Shown here one piece after another: positions 204 through 58,758 of a DNA stretch of 64,000 bases. Numbering within the stretch: position 1 is the first letter of the stretch; every line of letters begins with the position of its first letter. Made by a program: the position numbers and the translations under genes. Below the pieces are notes generated by a model, which saw only the letters and a program-made list of their open reading frames with translations, was not told the DNA's origin and made no database searches. Source of the DNA: an uncultured Gelidibacter sp. (GTDB lineage: Bacteria; Bacteroidota; Bacteroidia; Flavobacteriales; Flavobacteriaceae); contig NZ_CANMTE010000002.1 in NCBI RefSeq assembly GCF_947500795.1, forward strand, positions 186,001 to 250,000, read 5' to 3'.

Positions 204-225
204 ACCCTTCGACTGCGCTCAGGGT
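204..225. repeat. Dispersed hairpin repeat with TCGACTGCGCTC loop, copy 1
   Basis: A 5-bp stem ACCCT/AGGGT encloses the 12-nt loop TCGACTGCGCTC. The same loop recurs at 2857-2868 with different but compensated arms, and the core TCGACTGCGCT recurs as an inverted pair at 56635-56684. From memory this resembles a repeat scattered through many flavobacterial intergenic regions. Function unknown. Confidence 0.65.
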
Positions 226-254
226 GACATTGTAACGATAGTTCGTAGCTACTT

Positions 255-2850: not shown

Positions 2851-2874
2851 CACACTTCGACTGCGCTCAGTGTG
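2851..2874. repeat. Dispersed hairpin repeat with TCGACTGCGCTC loop, copy 2
   Basis: A 6-bp stem CACACT/AGTGTG encloses the same 12-nt loop TCGACTGCGCTC as the copy at 204-225. The arms differ between the two copies yet stay complementary, which argues that the folded form matters. It lies in the atpH-atpA spacer. Confidence 0.7.
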
Positions 2875-2891
2875 ACCAATCAATAAAACTT

Positions 2892-54928: not shown

Positions 54929-55864
54929 ATGTTTGCTCTTCCGATTATTGCTGTTATTATTTTTGTCATAGTCATTTCTGCTTTTTTTACCGTGAAGCAA
55001 CAGTCTGCTGCCATTATTGAACGTTTTGGTAAATTTCAAGTCATTCGACATTCGGGATTACAAATGAAAATTCCAATTATTGATCGTGTGGCAGGTAGAA
55101 TGAGCCTGAAAATTCAACAATTGGATGTAATTGTTGAAACAAAAACCTTGGATGATGTTTTCGTGCGATTAAAAATTTCTGTTCAATTTAAAGTGATTTC
55201 AGAAAAAGTATATGATGCCTTTTACAAACTGGATTATGCACACGATCAAATTACCAGTTATGTGTTTGATGTGGTACGTGCAGAAGTTCCTAAAATGAAA
55301 TTGGACGACGTTTTTGTTAAGAAAGATGATATTGCTATCGCCGTTAAAACGGAATTGAATGATGCGATGTCAGATTACGGTTATGACATCATTAAAACGC
55401 TTGTAACAGACATTGATCCGGATGCACAGGTAAAAGCTGCCATGAACAGAATTAATGCGTCTGAGCGCGAGAAAATAGCGGCTCAATTTGAAGGTGATGC
55501 TGCGCGTATTTTAATTGTAGAACGTGCAAAAGCGGAAGCAGAAAGCAAACGTTTACAAGGTCAGGGTATTGCTGATCAGCGTCGTGAAATTGCACGTGGT
55601 TTAGAGGAATCAGTAGAAGTACTTAATAAAGTGGGTATTAATTCTCAGGAAGCGTCTGCACTAATTGTGGTAACACAGCATTATGATACGCTTCAGTCTA
55701 TTGGTGAACATGTAAATAGTAACTTGATTTTATTACCAAATTCGCCTCAAGCTGGTAGTGATATGTTAAACAATATGGTGGCTAGTTTTACGGCAAGTAA
55801 TCAGATTGGTGAAGCCATGAAAGAAGCCAAAAACAAGAAGAAAGAAAACGATTTGAAAAAGTAA
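54929..55864 (+). CDS. SPFH/Band 7 domain membrane protein
   Basis: The 311-residue protein has one N-terminal helix (LPIIAVIIFVIVISAFFTV), then the SPFH domain (AAIIERFGKFQVIRHSGLQMKIPIIDRV) and a coiled coil with ASEREKIAAQFEGDAARILIVERAKAEAES, close to stomatin/QmcA proteins. Such proteins make large ring-like assemblies around membrane proteases or other partners. No NfeD gene accompanies it. Monocistronic with its own terminator. Confidence 0.9.
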   Translation: MFALPIIAVIIFVIVISAFFTVKQQSAAIIERFGKFQVIRHSGLQMKIPIIDRVAGRMSLKIQQLDVIVETKTLDDVFVRLKISVQFKVISEKVYDAFYKLDYAHDQITSYVFDVVRAEVPKMKLDDVFVKKDDIAIAVKTELNDAMSDYGYDIIKTLVTDIDPDAQVKAAMNRINASEREKIAAQFEGDAARILIVERAKAEAESKRLQGQGIADQRREIARGLEESVEVLNKVGINSQEASALIVVTQHYDTLQSIGEHVNSNLILLPNSPQAGSDMLNNMVASFTASNQIGEAMKEAKNKKKENDLKK

Positions 55865-55872
55865 TCATCAAT

Positions 55873-55902
55873 AAAAAGCCCTTCAGATGTGAAGGGCTTT
55901 TT
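55873..55902 (+). terminator. Terminator after the SPFH gene
   Basis: A 12-bp stem AAAAAGCCCTTC / GAAGGGCTTTTT with a 6-nt loop, beginning nine bases after the stop codon. Confidence 0.9.
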
Positions 55903-56006
55903 AGTTTTTAATAGTCTCTATCCAACGCTAGATTTCTTTTAGTTGGTATTAACGCAACCAATTGTATCCTTACGCATCTTCATAGCAATACCTAAACCTA
56001 AAACAT

Positions 56007-56549
56007 ATGAGAGCAAAAATTTTATTGTTAATGATCGTCGGAATCTTATTTTCTTGTTCCAGTGATGATGACCATCAAACAAAAATTATCAACATGCGTG
56101 TGAATCATTATCAAAATACAGGAATGGGCGAAGGTTTGTTTTTAACTTTTCTTGTTCAAGAAGGAAATGCTATTGGAACAGATAATTGGACAAAATTATA
56201 TAATACCATTGAAGGTTTTGATTATAAACCAGGGAAAATTTATGATCTTTCAGTAGTGGTTGAGCAGGTTAAAAATCCGCCTCAAGATGCCAGTTCTTTA
56301 AAATATACGTTGAAAGAAATAATTTCGACTCAAGATGTAGATCCTGAAATTCTATTTGATATTGATTTAAAAACAAATGGTCAGAGTTTTGTGACAACAA
56401 ATTCAGGCTACGAACTTTTAAATCAGATTGAGATTGATTGTAATACGCTTTGCGATGCTCTCAATGCAGCCTTAGAAAATAAAGACTTCGTTGTGGGAAC
56501 TTTTAAAAGACTCCCTAATAATGACCTACAATTGGTGGAACTGAAGTAA
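56007..56549 (+). CDS. DUF4377 family lipoprotein
   Basis: The 180-residue product starts MRAKILLLMIVGILFSCSSDDDHQ, a lipoprotein signal with Cys at residue 17 and an acidic SSDDD after it, which in Bacteroidota often favours surface export. The segment IEGFDYKPGKIYDLSVVVEQVKNPPQDASSLKYTL is the DUF4377 core. Members are often fused to META domains; this one stands alone. Function unknown. Confidence 0.85.
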   Translation: MRAKILLLMIVGILFSCSSDDDHQTKIINMRVNHYQNTGMGEGLFLTFLVQEGNAIGTDNWTKLYNTIEGFDYKPGKIYDLSVVVEQVKNPPQDASSLKYTLKEIISTQDVDPEILFDIDLKTNGQSFVTTNSGYELLNQIEIDCNTLCDALNAALENKDFVVGTFKRLPNNDLQLVELK

Positions 56550-56634
56550 ATTTCTTGCCAACAACGAACTGAATTACTGGCGAAATTAAATTAGGTAACA
56601 TCTCCTCTTTTGATGCTTGTATATTATCTAAAAA

Positions 56635-56684
56635 AGCGCAGTCGAAACCCGTATGATGTTGTATCAACCTGTTTCGACTGCGCT
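56635..56684. repeat. Inverted repeat of the TCGACTGCGCT element
   Basis: AGCGCAGTCGAAAC and GTTTCGACTGCGCT are perfectly complementary 14-bp arms separated by 22 nt, in the 199-bp gap between convergent DUF4377 and glnS. The arms contain the core seen at 204-225 and 2851-2874. It may also stop transcription from both sides, though there is no T-run on the plus strand. Confidence 0.75.
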
Positions 56685-56748
56685 AAATTGGACATTTTTA
56701 TGCGAATGTTGACACCCTTATAAGGATGATCAAAAAATTCAATACACT

Positions 56749-58758
56749 TTATAATGCTTTTGCCTCAGTGACCAAAGCTTCATTTTTATCATCTATTCCT
56801 GAAGCGATAAATGCCTCAATATCTTCATTACGCTCTAACCCTTGTTCCAATAACACACCAAGTGTAATCATTGTAGCAATACGCGTCCCGACTTTTTTAG
56901 CCGCGGTGTTAAACCAAGGTTGCAACTCTTCATAACTCACATTTTTTGCAAGTTCTTGAATCTCTGCTTTAGTTTTTAATTGTTTTTCTTCCGGCAGATT
57001 GGTATATTTTTTACCTAATTGCTGAATGATATCAATCGCTTTTCGTTGCGGTTGATTGTTATTTGGTTTCACTTGCTGTGGCGAATTCTTTTGCTCCGTT
57101 TTTCCAGTATTCGATTCCTTAGTCCAAGAATCACGCAAGCCGACAGTTTTATTAAATACTAAGTTTTCTGCCGTCGAATCTTTATCAACATTAAAGTATC
57201 CAATACGTTGAAATTGGTAACGGTCTCCAACTTTAGCATCTTTTAAACTCGGCTCCACATACGCCGTAATGATTTTTAAAGATTCAGGATTTATAAATTC
57301 CATAAAATCCTTATCAGGATGTGCATCTGGAGAAGGATCCATAAACAAACGATCATATTCTCTAACCTCTGCCTTTACAGCATGTTTAATAGACACCCAA
57401 TGCAAAGTTCCTTTAACTTTTATAGACGTATCTTCAGTATAGGTACAGTGAATTTCGGTGATATTCCCATGTGCATCTTTAACAACGCTTTCACCCTTAA
57501 TGATGTAAGCATTCTTTAAACGCACTTGTTTTCCGATGCTTAATCTGAAATATTTGCTGCTCGCTTCTTCCTTAAAATCATCTCTTTCAATATACAATTC
57601 TCTAGAAAAAGGCACTTTTCTAAAGCCTAAACCTTCATCTTCCTGGCTATTTTCTGCTTCCAACCACTCCTCTTTTCCTTCTGGATAATTTGTGATTACA
57701 AGTTTAACAGGATCTAAAACAGCCATCACTCGTGGCGCTGTTTTGTTCAAATCTTCTCTGATACAGAACTCTAAAAGAGCCACATCAATCACATTATCAC
57801 GTTTGGCAACCCCTACGGTTTCCACAAATTTACGGATCGCGTTTGGAGTATAACCTCTACGACGCAACCCAGAAATAGTTGGCATGCGCGGATCATCCCA
57901 ACCCGAAACAATCTTCTCTTCTACCAATTTTAACAACTTACGTTTGCTCATGATGGTATAACTCAGGTTTAAACGGGCAAATTCGCGTTGTTTTGGGCGT
58001 ATTTTGTCAGATTCAACCACTTGGTCCAAGAACCAGTCGTAAAGCTCTCTGTGAGGCTTAAATTCGAGAGAACATAAACTGTGTGTAATACTTTCCAAAT
58101 AATCACTTTCACCATGCGTCCAATCGTACATAGGGTAAATGCACCAATCGTTGCCCGTTCTGTGATGGTGTTTTTTCAATACACGATACATAATTGGGTC
58201 ACGCATTAGCATATTGGTATGCTTCATGTCAATTTTTGCACGCAATACATGAGACCCTTCTTCACATTCCCCATTCTTCATTTTTTCAAAAAGTGCCAAA
58301 TTTTCCTCTACACTTCTATTGCGATAAGGACCATCTACACCAGGTTGTGTCGGTGTTCCTTTTTGCTCCGCCATAGCTTCAGACGATTGCGAATCAACAT
58401 AAGCTTTTCCGTCCTTAATCATTTGAACAGCCCAATCATACAACTGTTGAAAATAATCAGAAGAGTACAATTCATTCGCCCAAGTATAGCCTAACCAAGA
58501 AATATCTTCTTTAATGGCATCCACATACTCTTGTTCTTCTTTTGCTGGATTGGTATCATCAAAACGTAGATTTACAGGCGCGTTATATTTTTCACCCAAA
58601 CCAAAACTGATACCAATGGCTTTGGTATGTCCGATATGCAAATACCCATTTGGTTCCGGCGGAAACCTGAACCTAAGGTCGTCTTTAGACATTCCATTAG
58701 CTAAATCTTCTTCTATAATGTGCTCTAAAAAGTTGAGCGATTTTGATTCTTCTGACAT
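56749..58758 (-). CDS. glnS: Glutaminyl-tRNA synthetase with C-terminal extension
   Basis: The 669-residue class I synthetase has RFPPEPNGYLHIGHTKAI and MSKRKLLKLVEE as its two signature motifs, LRFDDTNPAKEEQEYVD, and the anticodon-binding beta-barrels up to about residue 555. E. coli GlnRS ends there at 554. Here a Gln/Asn/Lys linker (TEQKNSPQQVKPNNNQPQRK) leads to an extra helical domain of about 90 residues (TKAEIQELAKNVSYEELQPW). It differs from the YqeY-like tail known in Deinococcus as far as I can judge. Charges tRNA-Gln directly. Confidence 0.96.
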   Translation of the reverse strand: MSEESKSLNFLEHIIEEDLANGMSKDDLRFRFPPEPNGYLHIGHTKAIGISFGLGEKYNAPVNLRFDDTNPAKEEQEYVDAIKEDISWLGYTWANELYSSDYFQQLYDWAVQMIKDGKAYVDSQSSEAMAEQKGTPTQPGVDGPYRNRSVEENLALFEKMKNGECEEGSHVLRAKIDMKHTNMLMRDPIMYRVLKKHHHRTGNDWCIYPMYDWTHGESDYLESITHSLCSLEFKPHRELYDWFLDQVVESDKIRPKQREFARLNLSYTIMSKRKLLKLVEEKIVSGWDDPRMPTISGLRRRGYTPNAIRKFVETVGVAKRDNVIDVALLEFCIREDLNKTAPRVMAVLDPVKLVITNYPEGKEEWLEAENSQEDEGLGFRKVPFSRELYIERDDFKEEASSKYFRLSIGKQVRLKNAYIIKGESVVKDAHGNITEIHCTYTEDTSIKVKGTLHWVSIKHAVKAEVREYDRLFMDPSPDAHPDKDFMEFINPESLKIITAYVEPSLKDAKVGDRYQFQRIGYFNVDKDSTAENLVFNKTVGLRDSWTKESNTGKTEQKNSPQQVKPNNNQPQRKAIDIIQQLGKKYTNLPEEKQLKTKAEIQELAKNVSYEELQPWFNTAAKKVGTRIATMITLGVLLEQGLERNEDIEAFIASGIDDKNEALVTEAKAL

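Follow-up and report, generated by a model that had tools for sequence, protein, structure and literature searches.

The tag of known REP elements is GT[AG]G or CGTC, and many of these elements have a linked RAYT that is flanked by copies of the repeat (PMC2817692, PMC3733652, PMC6006769). REPINs consist of two short inverted palindromes at a narrow spacing and lie mainly outside genes; in the report on them 93% of doublets are inverted, and the spacer is less conserved than the ends (PMC3116915). In BIMEs, REPs are arrayed with their orientation alternating (PMC2817692), and members of the GTAG- and CGTC-tagged REP super-families, found in several phyla, are short stem-loops whose conserved tag stays unpaired at one foot (PMC3733652). 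For Bacteroidetes, a further report describes TnpA-Y1 genes of subclass 2.6 with flanking repeats that lack a GT[AG]G tag and have weak secondary structure (PMC6006769).

Here we describe a pair of inverted arms in the gap between a DUF4377 gene and glnS, within a 64-kb stretch of DNA that was analysed as a whole and is referred to as the window. The arms, AGCGCAGTCGAAAC (56635-56648) and GTTTCGACTGCGCT (56671-56684), are 14 bp long, lie 22 nt apart and are 100% complementary. Perfect 14-bp arms 3-60 nt apart occur at three places in the 64 kb, compared with a mean of 0.05 in dinucleotide shuffles. The TCGACTGCGCT core has 4 matches in the window (0.01 expected) and 34 in the whole 3.46-Mb genome, for which the reversed-pattern control gives 0; with the central base left free, the genome has 39 matches and the reversed control 2. 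Since the core occurs 34 times and its reversed control never, the arms between DUF4377 and glnS are not a chance pairing. The flanking genes, DUF4377 on the plus strand (56007..56549) and glnS on the minus strand (56749..58758), are convergent and both score above the Pfam cut-offs, with the glnS product matching a class I tRNA synthetase of the E/Q type. The preliminary description had reported perfect inverted arms with a core seen elsewhere, in the gap between these convergent genes, and on all three points our data agree with it.

The arms are the cores of a larger repeat unit that reads, on the tag strand, 5'-TGTCA-NNN-TGAGCGNAGTCGAA-N'N'N'. The three bases on each side of the core vary between copies yet complement each other, and the TGTCA tag is unpaired and well conserved. 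Fully complementary stems, of 13 types, are found in 31 of the 39 copies in this genome. Across 28 own copies, 94.6% of stem cells are paired (60.4% when shuffled) and stem covariation is 0.932 (0.270 when shuffled), a signal that sliding the partner destroys; 61 copies from the genus and 289 from other lineages show it as well. When single copies are folded as DNA by energy, a short outer stem forms at most (z 1.1 to -1.8), so the case for single-copy structure is made by covariation and not by energy. The free base N of the core is mostly C in this genome, and all four bases occur there in a relative of the same class, G160. The C-GNA-G of the element would presumably suit the tip of a single-stranded DNA hairpin. 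In form the element is a short interspersed palindrome with a conserved stem-loop, as REPs and REPINs are, and like them it lies mostly outside genes: a simple ORF scan placed 19 of 22 own-genome sites between ORFs. Besides the glnS locus, the window contains a single full copy with a CCC/GGG stem and a TGTCA tag (205..229, minus strand) and a single copy with a CAC/GTG stem (2853..2877, minus strand). Direct-repeat arrays also occur in this genome (C1:391713-391843, C5:40518-40609 and C6:4832-4898), with spacings of about 24, 27 and 28 nt from one copy to the next, in contrast to the facing dimers. Searches of Rfam gave no match to the element near any gathering score, and in the literature text the core appeared only in papers that are, by title, on neuroscience or medicine, where it presumably represents primers; variants of the core appeared in none.

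A genome-wide check for paired and single copies, proposed in the preliminary description, yielded three further facing dimers as well as single copies. In a full dimer, TGTCA-stem-TGAGCGNAGTCGAA-stem' is followed by a spacer and its own mirror image, with the tags outwards. All four dimers of this genome, the window dimer included, have this orientation, and 3 of the 4 lie between convergent genes. A variant dimer at C5:146517-146556 (L025) has TCGAGCGCAGTCGAGA for both cores; at the edge of each core C-G takes the place of T-A, a change that is compensatory. Among 151 genomes of the family, tag-outward dimers number 34 versus 3 in the opposite orientation (p 1e-7), and close pairs in G160 are tag-outward in 18 of 18 cases, at 52-55 nt. 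The doublets are thus inverted, narrowly spaced and of a single orientation, as in REPs and REPINs. The G160 genome (contig C1, L239-L288) carries 186 tagged copies, many of them in facing dimers, with few stem types; an apparent replication-strand bias of its copies proved to be an artefact of row order and was dropped.

A scan of public genomes returned at least 117 stretches with facing dimers. Among the matches listed, the cultured hosts include Dyadobacter, Winogradskyella, Flavivirga, other Flavobacteriaceae, Hymenobacter and Sphingomonas, and there are bins labelled Chloroflexota, Anaerolineales, Phycisphaerae, Peribacteria and Myxococcales, labels that may reflect contamination. Two genomes of the window's family, G147 and G015, share identical pairs with the named records L092 and L100, which points to Flavobacteriaceae as that family. 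Both halves have a perfect stem of their own in 80 of the 113 public dimers listed, and in 59 of those 80 the two perfect stems differ, which makes the halves look like separate hairpins. Of the 226 halves in these listed matches, 126 carry TGTCA as their tag and 33 carry GTTCG, and the dimers lie in 30 convergent and 7 divergent gaps. Measured from core end to core end, 68 of 118 dimers are 51-56 nt long. No gene is common to more than 4 of the neighbourhoods among the matches listed. In several Flavivirga (L127, L142, L153, L177, L188, L199) the dimers sit inside longer repeats of ~140-230 bp, and the 90-99% identity of these repeats from locus to locus suggests that a larger unit has spread recently.

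The window dimer is atypical in this collection. Its left half (56635..56648, minus strand), the core of one copy forming one arm, has a broken stem of its own (AAA/ACC) and has lost its TGTCA tag; its right half (56671..56684, plus strand), the core of the facing copy forming the other arm, also has a broken stem (AAT/ACA), and its outer tag (56690..56694, minus strand) is altered to TGTCC, compared with TGTCA in most copies. Only 5 of the 113 public dimers listed have both stems broken. The two cores are still intact and perfectly paired with each other, and the end of one half has become TTTTTT at the end of the stem on the glnS strand (56630..56635, minus strand), with one T in the last stem pair and five beyond it. 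Of the 226 strand ends of the 113 public dimers listed, none has TTTT at a distance of 1 nt or less from the stem, and the T-tract is therefore special to this copy.

The same glnS 3' end in the relative G008, a sister species, carries a fuller dimer, with the left tag and stem intact, the right half partly changed and no T-tract. The relative G007 retains a worn remnant there that is visible by alignment only, and in seven other relatives the core is absent from this site. The window and G008 match at 26 of 28 arm positions versus 14 of 23 aligned positions in the 22-nt spacer (56649..56670), giving p 0.014 for hand counts from the alignment of one locus in one species pair. The second site that we checked, 2853..2877, is likewise occupied in four relatives (G009, G007, G008 and G001), by copies in various states of decay, and in G005 and G006 the copy is replaced by other sequence. 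Since relatives share them, the copies at these two sites are old and inherited. In the place of DUF4377, G008 and G007 (L073, L074) have a small ORF in the opposite direction, which in G008 encodes 69 residues without a Pfam match, and so a gene replacement adjoining the window dimer is apparent from the sequences. Between glnS and the dimer, L073 holds a further palindrome, TCCCGATAACTATCGGGA, which may represent a second family of short repeats.

We consider it probable, at roughly 0.6, that the window holds a decayed REP-like facing dimer whose present role is the one-way intrinsic termination of glnS. A facing dimer would already have stood at the 3' end of glnS when the host species diverged from its closest relatives, presumably after moving as a unit in the past. 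In the host lineage the 3-bp stem and the intact tag of each half would then have been lost, with the two cores staying complementary to each other and a T-tract arising at the minus-strand end. The transcript would form the 14-bp stem followed by U5-6, a one-way intrinsic stop for glnS. The minus-strand fold has -29.0 kcal/mol (z -8.0), and a terminator score that combines stem energy and T-tail in the d'Aubenton-Carafa form is +23.5 on the glnS strand. Like Rho-independent (intrinsic) terminators, the window dimer has on this strand a perfect, stable stem with T6 directly after it. The stop codon of glnS lies 65 nt ahead of the stem, and the glnS strand of 55800-56900 has no second site that resembles a terminator. 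As judged from these features, the window dimer most likely ends glnS transcription, and it would be expected to act as a terminator in the cell. It differs from intrinsic terminators in its dispersed-repeat origin, in the other strand lacking a T-tract and in its loop, which at 22 nt, weakly folded inside, is long compared with the 3-8 nt of a short terminator loop and speaks against the terminator reading. The conservation of the arms is seen in one species pair. An ordinary hairpin, of 14 bp with a 4-nt loop and T-runs, is found 3' of the Band_7 (SPFH) gene at 55872-55903, and relatives are similar there.

A neutral reading, in which the dimer is an old, decaying relic without a present role and with an accidental T-tract, we regard as unlikely. 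It is consistent with the broken stems and the lost or altered tags of the window dimer, with the decay of the same site in G007 past recognition of the core, and with the single copy at 2857, which is also decaying in relatives. Against the terminator reading, the T-tract, at one locus, could be a product of drift, and glnS does not need it in general, as G008 and G007 manage without it. Neutral decay fits poorly with cores that are intact and perfectly paired despite the changed stems and spacer, and with T6 standing exactly at the stem end and on the glnS strand.

The preliminary description had further proposed that the arms could double as a bidirectional transcription stop, which would make them a working terminator for both convergent genes. 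The 14-bp stem does form in both transcripts (-30.4 kcal/mol on the plus strand), the gap is convergent, and the search of the surroundings gave DUF4377 no alternative candidate terminator. However, past the stem the plus strand reads AAATTGGACA, with AAATTGGACATTTTT as the tail and no T-tract, and the score on the DUF4377 strand is -31.5 versus +23.5 on that of glnS. With a T-tract on one strand only, the sequence does not support termination in both directions, and we hold this reading to be quite improbable. Equally doubtful is a MITE moved by a DDE transposase, in which the halves would be terminal inverted repeats (TGTCA...TGACA) and not two REP-like hairpins: full dimers do have inverted TGTCA/TGACA outer ends and a narrow length range, but the stem of each half covaries on its own, 59 of the 113 dimers listed combine two perfect stems that differ from one another, and single halves and direct repeats of halves are common.

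The decayed REP-like dimer that we favour at glnS belongs to a family whose likeness to REP/BIME elements, drawn in the preliminary description, stands for the form and fails for the membership. Like REPINs (PMC3116915), the element pairs two inverted short palindromes with narrow spacing, mostly in intergenic positions, with inverted doublets dominant and a spacer less conserved than the ends. It differs from them in its tag, TGTCA or GTTCG and not GT[AG]G or CGTC, in stems that vary freely within one genome, in a core that recurs across phyla, and in its 39 copies here, below the >100 per genome of REPs, a figure that the 186 copies of G160 exceed. Alternating copies in the relative G002 (L061, L062) resemble BIMEs (PMC2817692), whereas the present genome holds no more than four dimers, along with some direct-repeat arrays. 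With the GTAG- and CGTC-tagged super-families the element shares the short stem-loop, the unpaired conserved tag at one foot and the occurrence in several phyla; its tag is different, and its core is absent from the main text of that paper (PMC3733652).

It also differs in the flanking RAYT. PF01797 (RAYT, Y1) has no match in this genome, with the E. coli control positive, or in G009, despite the many element copies there. No convincing copy lies within ~1.5 kb of a Y1 transposase at 42 loci in relatives, some of which overlap; a RAYT adjoining the element is ruled out at these loci. The fifty stretches around G160 copies likewise contain no Y1 relative. The element works like a REPIN, and we do not grant it membership. 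A link to a mobiliser through TnpA-Y1 subclass 2.6 is possible: compared by description only, the subclass 2.6 flanking structures come from the same phylum and likewise lack a GT[AG]G tag, and they differ in that the element is absent near the 42 Y1 loci examined (PMC6006769). A wider reading, which we hold to be less likely than not, is that the element forms a REPIN-like family in which the core, TGAGCGNAGTCGAA, is fixed, the stems covary freely and the tags (TGTCA, GTTCG) differ by lineage; such a family would spread across phyla by an enzyme other than a flanking RAYT, and its decayed dimers could then become host terminators.

Cultured Bacteroidota, Sphingomonas and bins with the labels Chloroflexota and Peribacteria all share the same 24 core bases, paired in one and the same orientation. 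The families of known REPs follow a cognate flanking RAYT, and none was found for this element; if this is true, something else copies it, and G160 is a good place to seek the copying enzyme. The dimer at glnS represents one way in which such an element may enter the control of host genes.
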